From Nitrospirae bacterium JdFR-85 (lineage in GTDB: Bacteria; Nitrospirota; Thermodesulfovibrionia; Thermodesulfovibrionales; JdFR-85): a stretch of DNA of 64,000 nucleotides. This document shows, piece by piece, positions 39,097 to 50,074 of this stretch. How positions within the stretch are numbered: the stretch's first letter is position 1; every line of letters starts with the position of its first letter. The stretch covers positions 62,186 to 126,185 of the forward strand of contig MTOU01000013.1 in assembly GCA_002011745.1 (NCBI GenBank). The letters run 5' to 3'. A program made the position numbers and the translations under genes. The notes under the pieces were generated by a model. That model was given only the letters and a program-made list of their open reading frames with translations. It was not told the origin of the DNA and ran no database searches.

Positions 39097-40754
39097 GAAG
39101 GATCAGAATCCTGCCAGAGTCCTTACAGGATAAAATAGCAGCAGGAGAGGTAATAGAAAGGCCCGCCTCTGTGGTAAAGGAACTTCTTGAGAACTCTCTT
39201 GATGCAGGTGCCACAGAGATACATATAGAGGTTCTTGGCTCAGGTAAGAGGTTGATAAAGGTAGCAGACAATGGAAGCGGCATTCTCCGGGATGATCTTG
39301 AACTCTGTTTCCTTAGGTATGCCACAAGTAAGATACTCTCAGAGGAAGACCTTTATAAGATAAAAACTTTGGGATTCAGAGGTGAGGCACTCTCATCCAT
39401 AGCCTCGGTCTCAAAGATGAGGATCACATCACAGGCAGAAGCTGAAGAGGTGGGGGGTTTTATTGAACTCTCAGCCGGCAAACTCCTCAACAAGGGCCCT
39501 GCCACATGCAGAGGTACTGTTGTGGAAGTGAGAGACCTCTTCTTTAATACCCCTGCAAGAAAAAAATTCCTAAAATCAGACAAGACAGAACTCTATCATA
39601 TTATCTCTACCATAACAGAAATATCTCTTGCACATCCAGGAGTCTCTTTTCTGCTTCTGGTTGACAGACAAGAGACCTTGAATCTTCCAAAGGCAAAAGA
39701 CCTGAAAGAGAGACTTCAGCAGGTCTATGGTAATGAGACCATAGAAGGTCTCATCGAGGTCTTCAAAGGCACTCTACACATGTTTATCTCTAAGGAAGGG
39801 CACTTTCATTCCACAAGGGTGAACCAGCATGTATTCATTAATAGGAGACCTGTACGGGACCCTATCATAAAGAATGCCATATACAGAGGATATGGCATTC
39901 TTCTGCCAGCAGATAAACATCCCGAGTTTTTTGTATATTTGTACCTTTCTCCTGAAGATGTGGACTTCAATGTACATCCTACAAAAAGAGAGGTGAGATT
40001 CAGGGATAGAGAAAGCATCTACAGGAGGATCTACTTTACAGTGAAAGACCTTTTGCAAAAAGAAGAACCCACAGGAGTCAGGGAATCCCGAAGAGAGAAA
40101 ACCACTCCTGTTGAAGTAAAATCTACATACAAGGAGTCTCCTGAGACCCCTTATGAGCAGATCGCGATAAGAGAGACCGAAGAATCTTTCGATACAAAGA
40201 AGAAGTTTCTCCTCATAGGCGAGGTCTTTTTTGCCTACTCAGAGGGTAAAGGAATTACCATTGTTGACTATCATGCAGCACATGAAAGAATCCTCTATGA
40301 AAGACTGAAGAAGACAGACAATACAGCCTCAGTACAGCTACTCTTCCCAAAACAGATCCGCCTGCCAGAGAAGGAGTTCCGTATTCTTTCAGATCACTTA
40401 AGCACTCTGAAAGAGTTAGGGATTGAGGCAGAGGTTTTTGGAGAAAAGACACTGCTTATAAGGGCTTTGCCTCAGTTTCTACAAGATGTAAGGATTGAGA
40501 ATATCCTCACTGACCTTGCCCATGTCCTTATGGAAGTGGCTGCCTCCTGTCCTGTTGAAGAACTCAGAGATAGGCTTGCAAAGACAATAGCCTGTCATAA
40601 GGCTGTCAGAGGAAAGACACAACTGGATGAACTTGAGATGAGAAGGCTACTCGATGAGTTGAAGGAGATGGAAGACCCAAACCATTGTCCCCATGGCAGA
40701 CCCACAAGGATACACTTTGATATACCACATCTGAGGAAACTATTCCGGCGTTGA
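39093..40754 (+). CDS. mutL: DNA mismatch repair protein MutL
   Basis: RILPESLQDKIAAGEVIERPASVVKELLENSLDAGAT, TLGFRGEALSSIASVS, CPHGRPTRI. Confidence 0.97.
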   Translation: MRRIRILPESLQDKIAAGEVIERPASVVKELLENSLDAGATEIHIEVLGSGKRLIKVADNGSGILRDDLELCFLRYATSKILSEEDLYKIKTLGFRGEALSSIASVSKMRITSQAEAEEVGGFIELSAGKLLNKGPATCRGTVVEVRDLFFNTPARKKFLKSDKTELYHIISTITEISLAHPGVSFLLLVDRQETLNLPKAKDLKERLQQVYGNETIEGLIEVFKGTLHMFISKEGHFHSTRVNQHVFINRRPVRDPIIKNAIYRGYGILLPADKHPEFFVYLYLSPEDVDFNVHPTKREVRFRDRESIYRRIYFTVKDLLQKEEPTGVRESRREKTTPVEVKSTYKESPETPYEQIAIRETEESFDTKKKFLLIGEVFFAYSEGKGITIVDYHAAHERILYERLKKTDNTASVQLLFPKQIRLPEKEFRILSDHLSTLKELGIEAEVFGEKTLLIRALPQFLQDVRIENILTDLAHVLMEVAASCPVEELRDRLAKTIACHKAVRGKTQLDELEMRRLLDELKEMEDPNHCPHGRPTRIHFDIPHLRKLFRR

Positions 40755-40779
40755 CTTAATTCTTAAGAGATTGTATAAT
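40751..40779 (+). promoter_or_regulatory. Putative strong sigma70 promoter of the PilZ-MT/FabG/KS/ACP operon
   Basis: TTGACT - 17 nt - TATAAT; the -35 overlaps the mutL stop codon. Confidence 0.7.
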
Positions 40780-40787
40780 TATTATTA

Positions 40788-40816
40788 AGAAGGAGGGAAA
40801 CATAGAGAAGGAGGGA
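40788..40816 (+). repeat. Tandem direct repeat AGAAGGAGGGA containing two Shine-Dalgarno-like sequences
   Basis: Identical 11-mers at 40788-40798 and 40806-40816 upstream of ATG 40821. Confidence 0.7.
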
Positions 40817-40820
40817 TAAA

Positions 40821-42230
40821 ATGGATAGATTTGATCCAAGAATTAATAGTGGTATTCCTGTAACTATTCTTTCTAATCAAGATTCTAATTTAATCTCTAA
40901 AAGAGCTACAATTTCTAATCTAAGTCTGGATGGAGCATTTATAAAGACCTCATCATCCTTACCAGAAAATATGATTGTTAAACTGAAAATATTATTAAAT
41001 GGATTGGAGGAAGCAACAATTGAAGGGAAGGTTTTAAGAAGTGACAAAAAAGGGATTGCTGTGAGATTTATAAACCATACAAATATCAAACCACTACTTT
41101 GGCAGCATATTAGAGAGAAAGTCTCTATTAAGGATGTCTGCCCCCATTGTGGTTCCCCTTTAATAGAAAGAAAGAAGAGATGCAACAGTTGTGGCTTTTA
41201 TGTAGATTTTAAAAACAACAGATACCTTGAACTACATGAAAAGGATATTAAAGATAGGTGGATTTACTTTTTAGACAAAGCAATTGGAGAGCACTTGGAA
41301 GGGTTAAATGATGTAGAATTAGAGATTATAAGTAAAGAAAAAAGACAGTCAGAAATCTATGAACATCTGGAGGAGGTAATTAATAATTTTATCTTAAAAG
41401 CAGAAGAATTTGAAGAGGCAGTAGCAGAGAAGACTCTGATCAAAAAGGCCCAAATCGATTTTAGATTAAAAACTCGAGAGATATACTCAAAGAGCTATTG
41501 CATAAATCGGGCAAGAACATGGCCTCTTGGATATCAAGGAGATTACATGACACTTGAATGTATATACAGAAACATGCCTCTCTCCCATGGAATAGGATAT
41601 TATCTGGACCTTATTGCCTTAAATTCACCTCTTGCAAAAGCAGTAAGAAATAGAATTAAAAAACTGGAGGAGATATTAAGAATACAAATTTCTGAAAGAA
41701 AATCACCTTCTGTTCTTAATATTGGATGTGGTTCTTGTAGAGAGCTGATGGGATTAAGCCCCGAAATCAAGAATTCAAATGCGATAGTGACCTGTATAGA
41801 CAATGATGGCGAAGCCCTCTCCTTTGCTCAAAACCGCATTCAGTATGTAGGGCTCATGGGGAATGTAGAATTTTATAAATACAATGCTCTTAGAATGTTT
41901 GATGAGGAAACAAATATAAAGGAATTTGGCAAGAAAGATATTATCTACAGTGTTGGTCTTTTCGATTATCTCCCCTCAGATTTTCTGGTCAAGATGTTCA
42001 GAGGTCTATATAATCTCCTAAAATCAGATGGAATACTAATAGCTGCTTTCAAAGATGCAGATATGTACAAGCCCCATTTCTATCACTGGATAATTAACTG
42101 GGATGGTTTCTTACAGCGTACTGATAGTGAGTTTAGGAATATCTTTAAAGAAGCAGGAATACCAGAAACCTCAATTCTTGAGATGCGAGAGGAGATGGGA
42201 ATAATAGTATTTTACCTGATTACAAAATGA
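40821..42230 (+). CDS. PilZ domain - zinc ribbon - SAM-dependent methyltransferase fusion
   Basis: RFDPR (RxxxR) and NLSLDG (NxSxxG); CPHCG...CNSCG; VLNIGCGSCRELMG SAM motif. Confidence 0.8.
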   Translation: MDRFDPRINSGIPVTILSNQDSNLISKRATISNLSLDGAFIKTSSSLPENMIVKLKILLNGLEEATIEGKVLRSDKKGIAVRFINHTNIKPLLWQHIREKVSIKDVCPHCGSPLIERKKRCNSCGFYVDFKNNRYLELHEKDIKDRWIYFLDKAIGEHLEGLNDVELEIISKEKRQSEIYEHLEEVINNFILKAEEFEEAVAEKTLIKKAQIDFRLKTREIYSKSYCINRARTWPLGYQGDYMTLECIYRNMPLSHGIGYYLDLIALNSPLAKAVRNRIKKLEEILRIQISERKSPSVLNIGCGSCRELMGLSPEIKNSNAIVTCIDNDGEALSFAQNRIQYVGLMGNVEFYKYNALRMFDEETNIKEFGKKDIIYSVGLFDYLPSDFLVKMFRGLYNLLKSDGILIAAFKDADMYKPHFYHWIINWDGFLQRTDSEFRNIFKEAGIPETSILEMREEMGIIVFYLITK

Positions 42231-42991
42231 CAGGTGGACTGCTTAAGGGACTTGTTGCACTTGTCACAGGAGGAACAAGAGGAATAGGCCGATCGATAGT
42301 ACTTGCTATTGCAAAAGAAGGAGCAGATTGTGTCTTTACTTATAACAGCAGTCAATCTTTGGCAGAATCGCTTGTAGAAGAGGTTCAAACTATGGGTAGA
42401 CATGCATTGTCAGTAAGAGTTGATGTAAGAGACTCGGAAGGCACTAAGGCACTTATTGAGAAAGTTAAGTCAGAATTTGGAAGAATAGACCTACTTGTTA
42501 ACAATGCAGGCATAACAAGAGATAAATCACTTTTGATGATGGAAAAACAAGACTGGCTGGATGTGATAGATACAGATCTTACAGGAGTCTATAACACGAC
42601 CCGCTCATGTATTAGTCTATTCTTAAGACAACAAAGCGGTGTGATTGTAAACATATCTTCCGTGAGTGGTATACATCCTCTTGCAGGACAGACTAACTAT
42701 GCTGCTGCTAAGGCAGGAGTAATAGGCTTTACAAAGTCTCTTGCCAGAGAAGTAGGACCCTACAATATAAGAGTAAATGTAGTAGCACCAGGCTTTGTAG
42801 AAACAGATATGACAGCAAAACTTAGAGACAGCTATAAACAGAGACTCCTCCAAGTAATTCCATCCAAAAGATTTGGTAGACCTGAAGAGATAGCAAAGGT
42901 AGTTGTCTTTCTTTTAAGCAACAAAGCCCAGTATATCACCGGGCAGGTAATAGTTGTTGACGGCGGGCTATCACTTTTATCAGAGATATAG
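42227..42991 (+). CDS. 3-oxoacyl-ACP reductase (FabG-like SDR)
   Basis: LVTGGTRGIGRSIV, NNAGITRD, ISSVSG...NYAAAKAGVIGF, VETDMT. Confidence 0.93.
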   Translation: MTGGLLKGLVALVTGGTRGIGRSIVLAIAKEGADCVFTYNSSQSLAESLVEEVQTMGRHALSVRVDVRDSEGTKALIEKVKSEFGRIDLLVNNAGITRDKSLLMMEKQDWLDVIDTDLTGVYNTTRSCISLFLRQQSGVIVNISSVSGIHPLAGQTNYAAAKAGVIGFTKSLAREVGPYNIRVNVVAPGFVETDMTAKLRDSYKQRLLQVIPSKRFGRPEEIAKVVVFLLSNKAQYITGQVIVVDGGLSLLSEI

Positions 42992-42999
42992 TTAACCTT

Positions 43000-44208
43000 A
43001 TGACTACAGAAGTTGTAATAACAGGCATTGGTGTAGTATCTCCTATTGGTATAGGCAGAAGAGTCTTTTTTGATAGTTTAGAAAAAGGAGAAACAGGTTT
43101 TAGAGAAATCACCCTTTTTGATACTTCAGCCCTAAATGTTCATATTGCTGGAGAGATCAGTGATTTTGATCCTGTAGTATTTCTCGGCAAGAAAGGCCTC
43201 AGAACCCTTGACAGAAGCACCAAACTTGTCTGTTCTGCTGCAATGCTTGCAATAGAAGATGCAGACCTCACTATAACAGAAACAAATACACACTCTATAG
43301 GGGTCTGCATAGGTACCACCTTTGGAAGTCTCCATAGTATCTCTCAGTTTGACAGGGAAGGTCTGATTGAAGGACCAAGATTTGTAAACCCATCTTTTTT
43401 CCCCAATACAGTAATAAACTCACCTGCCAGCCAGATATCCATAAGGTTCAATATAAAAGGGTTCAATACTACTATTTCCACCGGAGTCTGCTCAGGACTC
43501 GATGCCATCTCTTATGCCTCTGACTTTATAAAACTCGGAAGGGCAGATGTAGTAATCGCAGGGGCTGTGGAAGAACTGTGTGAAGAAACCTTTATAGGAT
43601 TTCACAACATGGGACTACTATCTGGTGTGGATGGTTCAGAATCTTTATGTTGTCCTTTTGATAAGAGGAGAAATGGTTTTATCTTATCCGAAGGAGCCAT
43701 AGTTTTTGTGCTCGAAAATAGAAAACATGCCGAGACCAGAGGTGCAAAAATTTTTGCAAGAGTGCAGGGATATACAAGTTGTATTACATCTGAGGCAGAA
43801 GATGCCCTCTCAGAGGCGATATCTTCTGCCCTGAAAGATGCGTCTATGAATCCTGAGGAGGTGGAATACATATCTGCTGGTGCAAATTCAACAGTAGAGC
43901 TTGACCGATTAGAGACAAAAGCACTAAAAAAGGTATTGGGGGATCATATTTACAAGATTCCTGTAAGTTCCATAAAATCAATGATAGGAGAAACCTTCTC
44001 TGCGGCAGGTGCCTTCTCTCTGGGGGCAGCAGTCTGTGCCCTAAACAGAGGATTTCTACCTCCTACAGTTAACTATAGAGTAAAAGACCCCGAGTGTGAT
44101 CTTGATTATGTACCAAATGAAGCAAGGCCAATGGATGTAAATAGTGCCCTTGTTATTGCCTCAGACCTTTACGGAAATTCTTCCGTAGTTGTGATTAACA
44201 AGATATGA
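43000..44208 (+). CDS. Ketosynthase-like protein lacking catalytic residues (KS-beta/chain-length-factor-like)
   Basis: Thiolase-fold KS ORF; STGVCSG, ISAGANSTVELD and SSIKSMIGETF replace STACASG, HGTGT and GHxxG. Confidence 0.82.
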   Translation: MTTEVVITGIGVVSPIGIGRRVFFDSLEKGETGFREITLFDTSALNVHIAGEISDFDPVVFLGKKGLRTLDRSTKLVCSAAMLAIEDADLTITETNTHSIGVCIGTTFGSLHSISQFDREGLIEGPRFVNPSFFPNTVINSPASQISIRFNIKGFNTTISTGVCSGLDAISYASDFIKLGRADVVIAGAVEELCEETFIGFHNMGLLSGVDGSESLCCPFDKRRNGFILSEGAIVFVLENRKHAETRGAKIFARVQGYTSCITSEAEDALSEAISSALKDASMNPEEVEYISAGANSTVELDRLETKALKKVLGDHIYKIPVSSIKSMIGETFSAAGAFSLGAAVCALNRGFLPPTVNYRVKDPECDLDYVPNEARPMDVNSALVIASDLYGNSSVVVINKI

Positions 44209-45413
44209 GCACTCGGGTAGTAGTAACAGGTCTGGGAGTAGTCTCCTCCATCGGTACAGGATGGCAGGAGTTTTGGAGTAATCTGCTTAATGGAAAATCA
44301 GGTATAAGTGATATCACCTCTATCGATACTTCAGCACACTTCACCCATAAAGGTGGGGAAATAAAAGACTTCAATCCCCAAAAGTTTATCCCAGAAGCCC
44401 TTATGAAGAGCTATAGTCGAGCAACCATACTTGCTGTTGTAGCAGCAAAACAGGCATTCTTAGATGCTGCTATTGAGATTCCTTTTGCTCAGGATATCCC
44501 TGTAGGCATCTGTTATGGAACCACCACCGGACCTATTCAGGTTATAGAAGATATTAATAATATCTATTTACAAGAGCAGACTTTCCCCTCTCATCTATTC
44601 TTTCAACTGCCACCACATACCACTGTCTCAGCAATAAGTAAGGAGTTAGGGTTGAAAGGTCCGAGCCTTGTGCTTTCAACAGCCTGTGCTGCTGGTAATT
44701 ATGCAATAGGCTCTGGATATGATCTTATTCGTATGCAGAAGGTAAAGATGGTTGTCTGCTGTGCCAGTGATGCCTTCTCCAGGATTTCCTTTACTGGTTT
44801 TAATCAGTTTAAAGCAGTGGCACCTGAGAAGTGCCAGCCTTTTGATAAAAATCGTAAAGGTATGATGGTAGCTGAGGGTGCAGGTGCCCTTATATTAGAA
44901 GACTTAGAATATGCAATGAAACGTGGAGCGAAAATATATGCAGAGATTATCGGTTATGGTCTCAGTTGTGATGCAAGACACATGACATCTCCTTCTGTTG
45001 ATGGAATTGTGGCTTGTATGAAGAAGGCACTTAAAGAGGCCGGGATCTCACCAGAGGATGTGGACTATATTTCTGCCCATGGTACAGGTACATTAGCAAA
45101 TGACAGAACAGAGTGTGCTGCTATAAAGGAGGTTTTTGGAAAACGTTATAAGGAGATTCCGATAAGTTCGATAAAATCCATGTTGGGGCATACAATGGGA
45201 GCAGCATCAGCCTTAGAGGCGATTGCGTGTACACTTGCCATAAAGCATAGTATTATACCTCCTACGATAAACTTTGAAACACCCGATCCAGAGTGTGATA
45301 TTAATTGTGTTCCTAACAAGGCACGGAAGCACGAAGTAAACTATGTCCTTAATAACTCTTATGCCTTTGGGGGAAATAATGCCTCAGTGGTACTGAAGAG
45401 ATTTGTTGAATAA
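44205..45413 (+). CDS. Beta-ketoacyl-ACP synthase (KAS II-like, intact)
   Basis: LSTACAAGNYAIG, ISAHGTGTLANDRTE, SSIKSMLGHTMGAASALEA, NSYAFGGNNASVVL. Confidence 0.93.
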   Translation: MSTRVVVTGLGVVSSIGTGWQEFWSNLLNGKSGISDITSIDTSAHFTHKGGEIKDFNPQKFIPEALMKSYSRATILAVVAAKQAFLDAAIEIPFAQDIPVGICYGTTTGPIQVIEDINNIYLQEQTFPSHLFFQLPPHTTVSAISKELGLKGPSLVLSTACAAGNYAIGSGYDLIRMQKVKMVVCCASDAFSRISFTGFNQFKAVAPEKCQPFDKNRKGMMVAEGAGALILEDLEYAMKRGAKIYAEIIGYGLSCDARHMTSPSVDGIVACMKKALKEAGISPEDVDYISAHGTGTLANDRTECAAIKEVFGKRYKEIPISSIKSMLGHTMGAASALEAIACTLAIKHSIIPPTINFETPDPECDINCVPNKARKHEVNYVLNNSYAFGGNNASVVLKRFVE

Positions 45414-45449
45414 TATTGTAAAATAAATAATTATAAGAAGGAGGACACT

Positions 45450-45713
45450 ATGGTTAATAATATTCAGAAAGAAATTATCTCTATTATTTCTGATGTAACA
45501 GGCTTTGAACCAGAAGAGATTACATTGGAGTCAAATTTCTACAATGACTTAGAAGTGGATTCTGTTAAGGCTATTGAGATAGTTGTTGCCATAGAAAAAA
45601 GATTTAAAGTAAGTATAAGAGATGAAGAGATACCAAACATTACAACAGTAATGCAGGCTGTAGATATTGTAAAGAAACTGCTTAAGGAAAAAGAGGAGAA
45701 TGTCCAGGTATAG
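45450..45713 (+). CDS. Acyl carrier protein
   Basis: FYNDLEVDSVKAIEIVVAIEKRF phosphopantetheine site. Confidence 0.92.
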   Translation: MVNNIQKEIISIISDVTGFEPEEITLESNFYNDLEVDSVKAIEIVVAIEKRFKVSIRDEEIPNITTVMQAVDIVKKLLKEKEENVQV

Positions 45714-47124
45714 CAGTGAAGAATATGATGTAATAATTATTGGTGCAGGTATTGGAGGCCTGGTATGTGGCTGTTACCTTGCAAAGGCAGGCATGAAGGT
45801 ACTTATCTGTGAACAGCACAATAAGCCTGGCGGATACTGCACTTCTTTTAAACGGAAAGGTTTTACTTTTGACGCAGCCCCTCACTGCTTTGGATCATAT
45901 AGAGAAGGCGGGGTTATGAGGAAGATATTAAAAGAGCTTGAAGTAGATAAAAAATTAACTATCATAAGACCTGACCCTTCTGATATCATTATAACACCTG
46001 ATTATAAAATTCCTTTCTGGAACGATTTAGAAAGGACAATAAATGAGTTTCAAAAAATTTTTCCAAAAGAACGTAATATAAGAAAATTTTTTTATTTATT
46101 GTTAGATACTAATCCTAAATCCTTTTCTAAGATGAGAAATCTGACTTTCGGAGAACTATTGGATGAATATTTCACTGATGAAAAATTAAAAGCAATTTTA
46201 TCCTTACCTTTTTTCGGAATCGGTGGATTACCCTCCTTTTTAATGTCTGCCTTTGTAGGAGCCAAACTCTTTTCAGAGTTTCTCCTTGATGGAGGATACT
46301 ATCCGAAAGGTGGAATGCAGACACTATCTGATGCATTAGCAGAAAGGTTTAAAGAATTTGGAGGCGAATTATTATTATCATCTCGTGTTAAAAAAATAAA
46401 AGTAAAAGATAATATAGTCAAAGGTGTAATATTGGAAAATAATACTTTTTTACCTTCAAAGTATGTTATTTCAAATTGTGATGCCAGACAGACTTTTTTA
46501 AAACTTATAGGTAAAGAAAAACTTACAACCGAATTTTACAATAAACTGAACAATATGATACCTTCAAACTCGAATTTTATTATATATTTAGGAGTAGATG
46601 CTTCTTTTAAGCCTCTTTACAATCCTGGTTCTTTTATATATTATTTTTCTTCTTATTCTATACAAAAAATCTACCAATCTATCCAAACGGGAGATATTGA
46701 AAAATATAATGTATTTTTGTTACGTGTCGCTCATGATAAATCAACTATATATGCAGGCATTCCTGTCACATACAAAAACAAAAATTATTGGAAAAAAAAT
46801 AAATATAAATTTTTAGAGACATGCATAGAAAAAATAAAGTGGTGTACTTCTCAGGATTTATTAAAACATATAGTTTATAAAGATGCAGCTACACCAATTA
46901 CTTTGCACAAATATACTTATAATTATAAAGGTGCATCTTTTGGATGGGCTGGCATTACTTCACAATTTTCAGTACCAGACTTTAGAAAACCATCTTTTAT
47001 TCAAAATCTATTTTTAACAGGTCATTGGACTACTTTAGGAGTGGGTATATCTGGCACAGCATATGTAGGATATGATACTGCAAAGATACTTCTAAGAAAA
47101 GAAAAACCTAAAGAAACTAAATAA
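45700..47124 (+). CDS. Phytoene-desaturase-like FAD/NAD(P) oxidoreductase (CrtI/COG1233-like)
   Basis: DVIIIGAGIGGLVCGCYLAKAGMKVLICEQHNKPGGYCTSFKRKGFTFDAAPHCFG; overlaps the ACP end by 14 nt. Confidence 0.87.
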   Translation: MSRYSSEEYDVIIIGAGIGGLVCGCYLAKAGMKVLICEQHNKPGGYCTSFKRKGFTFDAAPHCFGSYREGGVMRKILKELEVDKKLTIIRPDPSDIIITPDYKIPFWNDLERTINEFQKIFPKERNIRKFFYLLLDTNPKSFSKMRNLTFGELLDEYFTDEKLKAILSLPFFGIGGLPSFLMSAFVGAKLFSEFLLDGGYYPKGGMQTLSDALAERFKEFGGELLLSSRVKKIKVKDNIVKGVILENNTFLPSKYVISNCDARQTFLKLIGKEKLTTEFYNKLNNMIPSNSNFIIYLGVDASFKPLYNPGSFIYYFSSYSIQKIYQSIQTGDIEKYNVFLLRVAHDKSTIYAGIPVTYKNKNYWKKNKYKFLETCIEKIKWCTSQDLLKHIVYKDAATPITLHKYTYNYKGASFGWAGITSQFSVPDFRKPSFIQNLFLTGHWTTLGVGISGTAYVGYDTAKILLRKEKPKETK

Positions 47125-47126
47125 TC

Positions 47127-48854
47127 ATGAGCAAAAAGGAATACATACAAGAAGAGCTATTAAAAACAACACATTCTTTTACTCAATTACTATTATCAAT
47201 TGCTGCTATTGTGATCCTTTTATTAAGTATATTAGACTATTTTGTCACACCAGAATATTTTAAAACTTTTTTCATATATAGAATAATAGCTGCTTCATTA
47301 TATGGAATATTATTTTTAATTTTCCGAAAAGTCAAAAAATTTGCTTCTCTTTTTATTATTATAGCCGCCTTAATAGTATCTATAATGATTGAGTTAATGA
47401 TTTTTCCACTAGGAGGACACCAATCTCCTTACTATGTAGGTTTTATTGTAGTTTTTGTCTTTTTATTCGGACTTCTTCCAATTTCTTTTGAAATGTCTAT
47501 AATTTTATCTTCAATAATATATGGAACTTACTTGTTTCCTATTTTAATATTTGATAATATTACCAATCCTCGCATCTTTATCAATAACAACATTTTCTTA
47601 ACGGCAACACTTATGGGGGGTCTTATATGGAGGTATATAAACCACAGAATTCATGTCAACAAACTATCCCTTGAATACGATCTTGCACAGGAACGGCAGC
47701 GTCTTAAGCTTTACTCTGAACAGCTTGAGTATCTTGTTGCGGAACGGACCAAGGAGCTTAAAAAGTCCGAAACCATGTTAAGGTCATTGTTTGAACAGGC
47801 TACAGATGGGATACTGATTATGAATGACAATGGAATCATTACTGATGCAAACGAAAAGGCATGTGAAATCTATGGATTTGATAAGGAATCATTAATTGGA
47901 ACAAATATAGAATTCTTTGAGACAGAAAAGAATAAACACTTATGGGCAGAAAGAAAAAAGAGACTTCTTAATGGAGAATCGCTCTTTTTTGAAACTCAAC
48001 ATCAGAGAAAGGATGGAAGTATAGTCTCTATCGAGATAAGTGCAAAGGCTATAGAACTTGAGAGCGGAAGGGTGATTCAGGCATTCTGCAGAGATGTTAC
48101 AGAAAAGAAGAGACTGCAACAACAACTGCTACAGTCTCAAAAACTGGAAAGTATAGGCCAGCTTGCTGGTGGCATAGCACACGATTTTAATAATTTCCTT
48201 ACAGTTATTATGGGATATTCAGAACTCCTTTCACAGAATCCAAAATTAGACGAAAGAAGTCTCCATATGATTAAACAGATTACACGTTCTGCCAGTCAGG
48301 CATCCCAGATTGTAGAAAAGCTTCTGAAATTCTCCAGAAGGGGTGATATTGAACGCACCAAGGTTAACTTGAACAATATAATCAATGAAACTCATGAGAT
48401 GCTGGAAAGATTTTTACCAAGAGAGGTAAAAATCAGAAAAGAATTACATGAGCCTCTTCCACTTGTAGAGGCCGATCCTAATCAGATGGAACAGGTCTTG
48501 ATGAATCTGGTAATAAATGCAAAAGATGCGATGCCAAATGGAGGAACTATAACAATTAATACAGCTCTCACATTCTTAGACAAAGATGAAGCCGGTGTAG
48601 CTAATATAAGACCAGGAGAGTATGTAAAAGTATCGATATCTGATACAGGCAAAGGCATTCCTGAGGAAAATCTGCCCCATATATTTGAACCCTTTTTCAC
48701 CACTAAAGGGAAAGACAAGGGAACAGGACTTGGTCTTGCCATGGTATATGGAATAGTTAAAGAACATGGCGGTCATATTACAGTCAAAAGCAAATTAAAT
48801 AAAGGGACTACATTTGAGGTCTATTTACCAGTAAACACAATTTCATCTTTTTAA
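47127..48854 (+). CDS. Membrane PAS sensor histidine kinase
   Basis: Several N-terminal TM segments, PAS (LFEQATDGILIMNDNGIITDANEKACEIYG), H-box GGIAHDFNNFLTVIMGYSELL, N/G boxes. Confidence 0.93.
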   Translation: MSKKEYIQEELLKTTHSFTQLLLSIAAIVILLLSILDYFVTPEYFKTFFIYRIIAASLYGILFLIFRKVKKFASLFIIIAALIVSIMIELMIFPLGGHQSPYYVGFIVVFVFLFGLLPISFEMSIILSSIIYGTYLFPILIFDNITNPRIFINNNIFLTATLMGGLIWRYINHRIHVNKLSLEYDLAQERQRLKLYSEQLEYLVAERTKELKKSETMLRSLFEQATDGILIMNDNGIITDANEKACEIYGFDKESLIGTNIEFFETEKNKHLWAERKKRLLNGESLFFETQHQRKDGSIVSIEISAKAIELESGRVIQAFCRDVTEKKRLQQQLLQSQKLESIGQLAGGIAHDFNNFLTVIMGYSELLSQNPKLDERSLHMIKQITRSASQASQIVEKLLKFSRRGDIERTKVNLNNIINETHEMLERFLPREVKIRKELHEPLPLVEADPNQMEQVLMNLVINAKDAMPNGGTITINTALTFLDKDEAGVANIRPGEYVKVSISDTGKGIPEENLPHIFEPFFTTKGKDKGTGLGLAMVYGIVKEHGGHITVKSKLNKGTTFEVYLPVNTISSF

Positions 48855-48978
48855 AATCTTCAGAATATACCTCAAAGCTCTTTTTAGCAACATCCTGTAT
48901 TGCTAATGGAGAAATAAATTGATCTATGCGATAAAAAACAATTTTTGAGTATACTCAATAGACAGAAAAAAGTTTTAT

Positions 48979-49007
48979 TTGACAGATACCCTTTTGAGAC
49001 CTTAAAA
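48979..49007 (+). promoter_or_regulatory. Putative sigma70 promoter for hemE
   Basis: TTGACA - 17 nt - TTAAAA. Confidence 0.45.
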
Positions 49008-49045
49008 TTTAATATTTTATGGTTCAGCAGTAAGAAGGAGGCTTT

Positions 49046-50074
49046 ATGAATGACATCTTCTTAAGGGCATGTCGTGGAGAGGCAGTAGAATATACCCCTG
49101 TCTGGATAATGCGTCAGGCAGGAAGATACCTGCCCCAGTATCAGAAGATCAGAGAAAAAGTGGATTTTCTTACTCTGTGTAAGACTCCCGAGCTTGCAGC
49201 AGAGGTGACAGTTCAACCGGTTGATATCCTTGGTGTTGATGCAGCAATTCTATTTTCTGATATTCTTATCCCTGTTGAAGCAATGGGAATGAGGCTCAGG
49301 TTTTATGAGAAGAGAGGCCCTGTACTTAGTAGACCTATTCGGAGTCTGAAGAGTGTAAAAAAACTTAAACCAATAAAACCTGAAGAAGATGTTCCCTTTG
49401 TCTTAAAAACTATTAAAATACTAAGAAGAAGACTTCGCAGGAAAGTGCCTTTGATAGGGTTTGCAGGAGCTCCTTTTACTCTTGCCACTTACATGATTGA
49501 GGGAGGCACCTCAAAACACTTTGTCTATACAAAGACAATGATGTTCAAGACTCCAGATGTCTTCCATTCTCTCATGGAAACCGTAACAGACAGTACTATC
49601 AGATATCTCTCTGCCCAGATAAAGGCAGGAGTACAGGCGATTCAGATATTCGATTCATGGGCAGGAGTGCTTTCCCCAGATGACTACAGGCTCTTTAGTC
49701 TTCCCTATGTAATAAGGATTGTAGAAGAACTAAGTAGCTCTGGCATACCTATTATATATTTTGTGAATAACTGTGCAGGACTTTTGGAAGAGATAAAAAA
49801 GGTGCCATCAGAGGTGATAGGAATCGACTGGAGGGTAGATATAGCAGATGCTATAAAAAGACTTGGCAAAGATCGGGTGATTCAGGGCAATCTTGACCCT
49901 ACAGCTCTCTTCTCAGATCCAGCAACCCTTAGAGAAAAAGTAATAGGAATCCTGCGCAAGGCCAAGAAGGCTAAAGGACATATTTTCAATCTCGGTCATG
50001 GTATACTTCCTCAAAGCTCTCCTGAAATGGCAAAGAGACTGGTTGAGATGGTCCATGAATTCAGCAGTAAATAG
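49046..50074 (+). CDS. hemE: Uroporphyrinogen decarboxylase
   Basis: TPVWIMRQAGRYLPQYQKIR, FSDILIPVEAMGM, GFAGAPFTLATYMIEGG, GNLDP, NLGHGI. Confidence 0.97.
   Translation: MNDIFLRACRGEAVEYTPVWIMRQAGRYLPQYQKIREKVDFLTLCKTPELAAEVTVQPVDILGVDAAILFSDILIPVEAMGMRLRFYEKRGPVLSRPIRSLKSVKKLKPIKPEEDVPFVLKTIKILRRRLRRKVPLIGFAGAPFTLATYMIEGGTSKHFVYTKTMMFKTPDVFHSLMETVTDSTIRYLSAQIKAGVQAIQIFDSWAGVLSPDDYRLFSLPYVIRIVEELSSSGIPIIYFVNNCAGLLEEIKKVPSEVIGIDWRVDIADAIKRLGKDRVIQGNLDPTALFSDPATLREKVIGILRKAKKAKGHIFNLGHGILPQSSPEMAKRLVEMVHEFSSK

Follow-up and report, generated by a model that had tools for sequence, protein, structure and literature searches.

A ketosynthase (KS) pair made of one dead member (the non-canonical FabF Kuste3606) and one intact member (Kuste3605) is encoded in the anammox bacterium Kuenenia stuttgartiensis by the cluster kuste3603-3608, together with an ACP, FabZ, a CrtI-like protein and a radical SAM enzyme; E. 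coli expressing this set produced no new fatty acids (PMC4790861). For Kuste3606 an unusual substrate was proposed, and its active-site residues were listed as Val163, Asn298, Tyr300, Gly302, Lys328, Glu333, Gln342 and Arg392 (Rattray 2009, PMC2649909). Coupled pairs of one active and one dead subunit also typify the aromatic type II PKSs (KSa and chain-length factor, CLF; e.g. actinorhodin, 1tqy), and the highly reducing (HR) type II PKSs (KS-CLF, KR, DH and ACP) make polyenes (PMC10698177). Furthermore, a 2023 survey reported KS-CLF pairs in Nitrospirae, Omnitrophica, Planctomycetes and Acidobacteria, as well as an unexplored, mainly non-actinobacterial type II KS-CLF clade (PMC10132072). 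Dead FabF paralogues in anammox clusters have been known since 2009, KS/CLF pairs are already catalogued in the phyla Nitrospirota, Omnitrophota and Acidobacteria (PMC10132072), and the nearest pair has a solved structure; what we add here is a family-wide signature of the dead subunit, its near-obligate pairing with an intact KS, the operon that harbors both, and a likely link to the highly reducing kind.

Within the window (a 64,000 nt stretch of contig MTOU01000013.1 from Nitrospirae bacterium JdFR-85), two consecutive forward-strand ORFs of 402 aa each, both KAS-type by Pfam, encode such a pair. The first (43000-44208), designated KSb, is a KAS-II-fold subunit without a catalytic triad (Pfam, alignment, best PDB match 9s5h_C), and the second (44205-45413), designated KSa, is an intact ketosynthase (Cys161/His292/Lys324/His329 by alignment; best PDB match 9s5h_B). 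A sequence-only reading of this DNA had described the first ketosynthase as full length and altered in three motifs, with His replaced by Gly and by Glu, next to an intact and translationally coupled neighbor; the ORF and the alignments bear this out in coordinates, length and residues. In KSb, Val163 occupies the column of the catalytic Cys (motif STGVCSG, with Cys164 at +1), Gly294 that of the first His (ISAGANST) and Glu331 that of the second (KSMIGE), and the alignment places the triad at no other KSb position; the glycine-rich GFGG loop is missing as well, and the KS lysine is retained as Lys326. The neighboring KSa keeps all three motifs (STACAAG, HGTGT and MLGHTMG), and among its orthologues the Cys is invariant in 17/17 and both His residues in the 16 that reach those columns. 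The coupling of the two ORFs is visible in the sequence as an ATGA overlap (...AAGATATGAGCACT...). A monomer model of KSb adopts the KAS fold (pLDDT 84, pTM 0.88; segments 109-137 and 210-223 at pLDDT <50), and a Foldseek comparison of the model with the PDB yielded KAS-type folds only, FabF first, among the best 50 matches listed, of which 9s5h was not one.

The named sequence collection gave 67 KSb loci, 66 of them in Nitrospirota, Omnitrophota, Acidobacteria and one record labelled Rhodocyclaceae, and the last a distant Paraburkholderia match to a large multidomain protein. The Rhodocyclaceae-labelled MAG (L097, assigned by its record to a betaproteobacterium) has the gene order of Omnitrophota, which may reflect a transfer or a misbinned contig. 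Loss of the triad is common to about 65 relatives from the three phyla and to one PDB chain, and so is a signature composed of STG[F]xxxxD, AN[ST], KSMxG[ED], VNPxxFPNTVINSPAS and GVEELCE, of which Acidobacteria are the most diverged carriers. None of 65 relatives has a His at 294 or 331, and position 331 is Glu or Asp in all those of the 65 sequences that extend over this column. Position 163 is hydrophobic in most cases: Phe in 29/33 Nitrospirota (with Cys in 2 and Leu in 1) and 22/24 Omnitrophota, and Leu in most Acidobacteria, the Val of the window being peculiar to it among the 33 Nitrospirota sequences. Since the loss is shared by about 65 relatives it is not damage and, as judged from these alignments, it is neither chance nor decay. 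The earlier description of a Cys displaced by one position is correct for the window copy, with one correction: the +1 Cys is found in 33/33 Nitrospirota, 13/24 Omnitrophota and 0/6 Acidobacteria, and is absent from the 9s5h chain, and this patchiness outside Nitrospirota means that the family has no common displaced catalytic residue. A displaced Cys acting as the nucleophile was rejected on the same grounds. Two Nitrospirota sequences (L062 and L063; STGCCSG and STGCCAG) carry a Cys at the catalytic position itself, without either His. Across the phylum the distribution of KSb is patchy, as it was carried by 24 of 245 sampled genomes.

Where KSb occurs, KSa nearly always accompanies it. Of the 53 loci with enough flanking sequence for adjacency to be counted, 51 carry KSa on the strand of KSb, downstream of it in 45 cases and upstream in 6 (the Acidobacteria-type order), and among 61 related genomes KSb is present in 22 and KSa in 19, with no genome containing KSa without KSb; in the three genomes with KSb only, contigs end in or near the place of KSa. 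Two genomes (G022 and G034) have the two genes on different contigs and retain both. The two subunits are thus co-inherited, and their pairing is near-obligate. The position of KSb upstream of KSa, which had been singled out as the reverse of the usual actinomycete order, is genuine (FabG-KSb-KSa) and typical of Nitrospirota and Omnitrophota. In the split operon of G022, KSb resides on C84 (L031) with the PilZ-methyltransferase gene and FabG, beside tRNA-methyltransferase-like and poly(A)-polymerase-like genes, and KSa on C66 (L044) with the ACP, CrtI-like and histidine kinase genes; the operon of G034 (L032) is likewise split. In some relatives PD-(D/E)XK (PDDEXK_3) ORFs stand between KSb and KSa (L028:8627-9052 and L029:5812-6147).

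The best PDB match of KSb is 9s5h_C (373 bits, 46% identity over 407 columns), the next-best being far lower (271 bits), and that of KSa is 9s5h_B (462 bits, 52% identity). Chains of the 9s5h_C and 9s5h_B types occur in 8 copies each over 9s5h and 9s5i, and 9s5i also contains an ACP that is found among the best PDB matches of the window ACP. By alignment, 9s5h_C agrees with 8/8 of the published Kuste3606 active-site residues and should therefore be Kuste3606 or a very close relative, so that 9s5h probably represents Kuste3605/3606 or near kin, an identification that stems from the residue match and not from the organism of the entry. KSb shares with Kuste3606 (and 9s5h_C) a hydrophobic residue at 163, here Val in both, the loss of the first His, an acidic residue (Glu in both) at the second and the retained Lys; it differs in having Gly at the first His, where Kuste3606 has Asn, and in its +1 Cys, which occurs in KSb only. 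At the level of the cluster, the window operon resembles kuste3603-3608 in its ACP and CrtI-like genes, and differs from it in lacking the radical SAM gene and FabZ and in possessing FabG, a PilZ-methyltransferase and a histidine kinase.

The phylogenetic position of both subunits was assessed in a 56-sequence KS tree, which did not include a KS-domain gene from contig 24. The HR-type CLF references were Iga12 and two Streptomyces plasmid loci, which are labelled HR-type by their kinship to Iga11/Iga12, their products not being known; the second KSs of L116 and L117 were dropped as CLF references because their motifs are intact. In the best tree, KSb (with 9s5h_C) and the HR CLFs, which form long branches, fall on one side of a branch with an SH-aLRT of 100, and KSa groups with the HR-type KSs (SH-aLRT 99.8), so that both subunits sit with the Iga pair. 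Tree tests rejected a grouping of KSa with actinomycete aromatic KSs (p 4e-62) and of KSb with KSa (p 2e-9); a clade of KSb with aromatic CLFs (p 0.147) and one of HR with aromatic CLFs (p 0.162) were not rejected. HR CLFs matched KSb at 137 and 84 bits versus 38 and 26 bits for KSa, and they too bear an acidic residue at the second His (Asp in Iga12, Glu in L118, Asp in L120), whereas in the three aromatic CLFs sampled (Streptomyces/Pseudonocardia) the Cys is replaced by Gln or His and the second His by Arg. Ranking the PDB matches to the KSb profile by raw score puts the Act CLF in the top 60 and Iga12 outside it. Based on the tree positions, the match scores and the acidic residue at the second His, we group the pair with type II PKSs of the highly reducing kind, for which the sequences lend good support in the case of KSa and moderate support in that of KSb. 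The suggestion of a CLF-like subunit is supported as regards a KS-beta, with the refinement that, in the best tree, the pair joins highly reducing rather than classical aromatic systems. A classical aromatic CLF was rejected as the identity of KSb, given its Val and Glu versus Gln/His and Arg and the disagreement of the KSa tree, and so was a KSQ-type malonyl decarboxylase (Cys replaced by Gln, both His kept), KSb having Val163, Gly294 and Glu331.

The likeness to the ishigamide system (6kxd) extends to the surrounding genes, with KR and ACP in the window cluster and DH in those of relatives. It is incomplete: Iga12, at 378 aa, is shorter and strongly diverged, the gene order is reversed in the window, and the CrtI-like and histidine kinase genes have no counterpart in the Iga system as described. 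In Iga11, Asp113 reportedly matters for release between rounds, and the window KSa has Thr at this position (GTTTG); since an equivalent of Asp113 is reportedly absent also from ApeO of the aryl polyene system, a polyene maker (PMC8358021), the residue is not strictly defining. As compared to aromatic type II PKSs, the window operon lacks cyclases and shows the reversed order.

KSb and KSa are the third and fourth genes of a seven-gene forward-strand operon (40821-48854), in which genes overlap or are separated by short gaps. A candidate promoter (TTGACT-17 nt-TATAAT, 40751-40779, forward strand), a pattern match only, scores 11/12 and is joint best of 43 sigma-70-like matches in 40600-49100 (the one at 48979 also scores 11), a region with more such matches than its shuffles. 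The first gene (40821-42230) encodes a PilZ domain and a SAM-dependent methyltransferase (Pfam PilZ, Methyltransf_25/31) and is conserved ahead of KSb in almost every Nitrospirota locus; its end overlaps by ATGA the start of fabG (42227-42991; FabG-type 3-ketoacyl-ACP reductase, KR; TIGR01830 308 bits, above cut-off). KSa is followed by an acyl carrier protein (ACP) with the DSV phosphopantetheine motif (45450-45713; PF00550, 52 bits), a CrtI/phytoene-desaturase-like FAD oxidoreductase (45700-47124), whose TIGR02734 score (150 bits) is below cut-off, making the CrtI-like superfamily clear and the substrate not, and a PAS-containing sensor histidine kinase (47127-48854; HATPase_c, HisKA, PAS), which is the conserved last gene of this lipid operon in Nitrospirota. 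Nitrospirota relatives have the same gene order, and often a FabA/FabZ-like dehydratase gene separates KSb from KSa; a dehydratase gene is present in the operon of many relatives and absent from that of the window, whose genome encodes its one FabZ on a different contig. As the operon has none of its own, this only FabZ is taken to be the probable dehydratase of the pathway.

The pairing, together with the kinship to the two chain types of one solved complex (9s5h/9s5i) and the loss of the triad, supports the KS-beta reading, and we consider it very probable that KSb is the non-catalytic beta subunit (in the CLF position) of a KSa/KSb heterodimer making (poly)unsaturated acyl chains. That KSb is instead a heterodimer partner with chemistry of its own (a cyclisation factor, or a ligand-activating site formed by Cys164, Asn296 and Glu331) appears improbable to us: a KS partner with another role does exist in AmcG, a proposed cyclisation factor (PMC10698177), the unusual Kuste3606 substrate of Rattray 2009 (PMC2649909) would fit, and Asn296 matches Cys164 in being present in 33/33 Nitrospirota, in addition to the conserved acidic residue at 331; yet Acidobacteria, the 9s5h chain and half of the Omnitrophota lack Cys164, Asn296 is replaced in Acidobacteria, and no catalytic His is left. 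Moreover, invariant columns make up roughly a quarter of an 18-row alignment, so that single invariances mean little.

There is very little to be said for an independently inactivated paralogue that serves the FAS KSs as scaffold or regulator, without KSa as its obligate partner: the raw identity of KSb to the FabF of its genome (42%) exceeds that to KSa (37%), but a single clade of KSb and FabF is rejected (p 0.006), KSb and KSa are present together or both absent (apart from the three contig ends), the pair is kept even in the split operon of G022, and orthologues of both are found in one solved complex. A decaying pseudogene, for which the disappearance of all three catalytic residues might be invoked, has a practically negligible chance of being correct, as orthologues with 52-67% identity in 22 of the 61 related genomes, from the same order, are full length and free of internal stops, the mean column identity of KSb (68%) equals for practical purposes that of the intact KSa (70%) in orthologue alignments, and the gene retains its ATGA coupling; the pseudogene reading was rejected on account of this conservation.

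Under the favored reading of KSb as a non-catalytic beta subunit, the window pair would form a heterodimer in which KSa carries out decarboxylative condensation on the dedicated ACP, and KSb may contribute half of the dimer interface and half of the acyl tunnel, offer a docking face to the ACP, stabilise KSa, and shape the tunnel or the chain length. In each round FabG would reduce and FabZ dehydrate, as in highly reducing type II PKSs, and the cycles would lead to a (poly)unsaturated acyl-ACP, presumably a polyene-like chain, to be modified thereafter by the CrtI-like flavoprotein. The dead KS subunit, unexplained in anammox bacteria since 2009, thereby acquires a multi-phylum family, a near-obligate partner and a testable role, and the data suggest that Nitrospirota and Omnitrophota have a conserved, uncharacterised lipid operon of a polyene-like kind, whose expression could avoid the radical SAM steps that make ladderane work difficult.

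More tentatively, and with doubts outweighing our confidence, the core shared by Nitrospirota, Omnitrophota and Acidobacteria (KSa/KSb, ACP, ketoreductase/dehydratase and CrtI-like protein) could represent one ancient polyene-forming type II synthase, to which kuste3603-3608 of anammox bacteria, included by residue match, would belong. In that case, Kuste3606 would be a chain-length factor instead of acting on an unusual substrate, a polyene made by the KS/CLF would be the starting material of the anammox cluster (a ladderane candidate), and the product of non-anammox relatives that lack the radical SAM gene would be the chain in its uncyclised form.

The composition of the cluster varies among relatives. 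Omnitrophota clusters begin with KSb, FabG and ACP and, often after a small dehydratase-sized ORF, continue with KSa and the CrtI-like gene, and some clusters add an acyl-reductase-like gene and a nitroreductase; the acyl-reductase-like genes (Male sterility, NAD_binding_4; ~370 aa) within the clusters L074 (7235-8344) and L076 (9930-11024) suggest reductive chain release. Acidobacteria (L102, L105, L108 and L110) have the same core in the order ACP-KSa-KSb; the L102 cluster includes HMG-CoA reductase, TetR-like and acyltransferase genes, and ORFs of similar size occupy the places of these extra genes in L105 and L110. In Nitrospirae GWC2_57_9, a radical SAM gene (L096:9257-10561) lies between the ACP and CrtI-like genes, giving a gene set that nearly equals that of the anammox kuste3603-3608 in a non-anammox bacterium.
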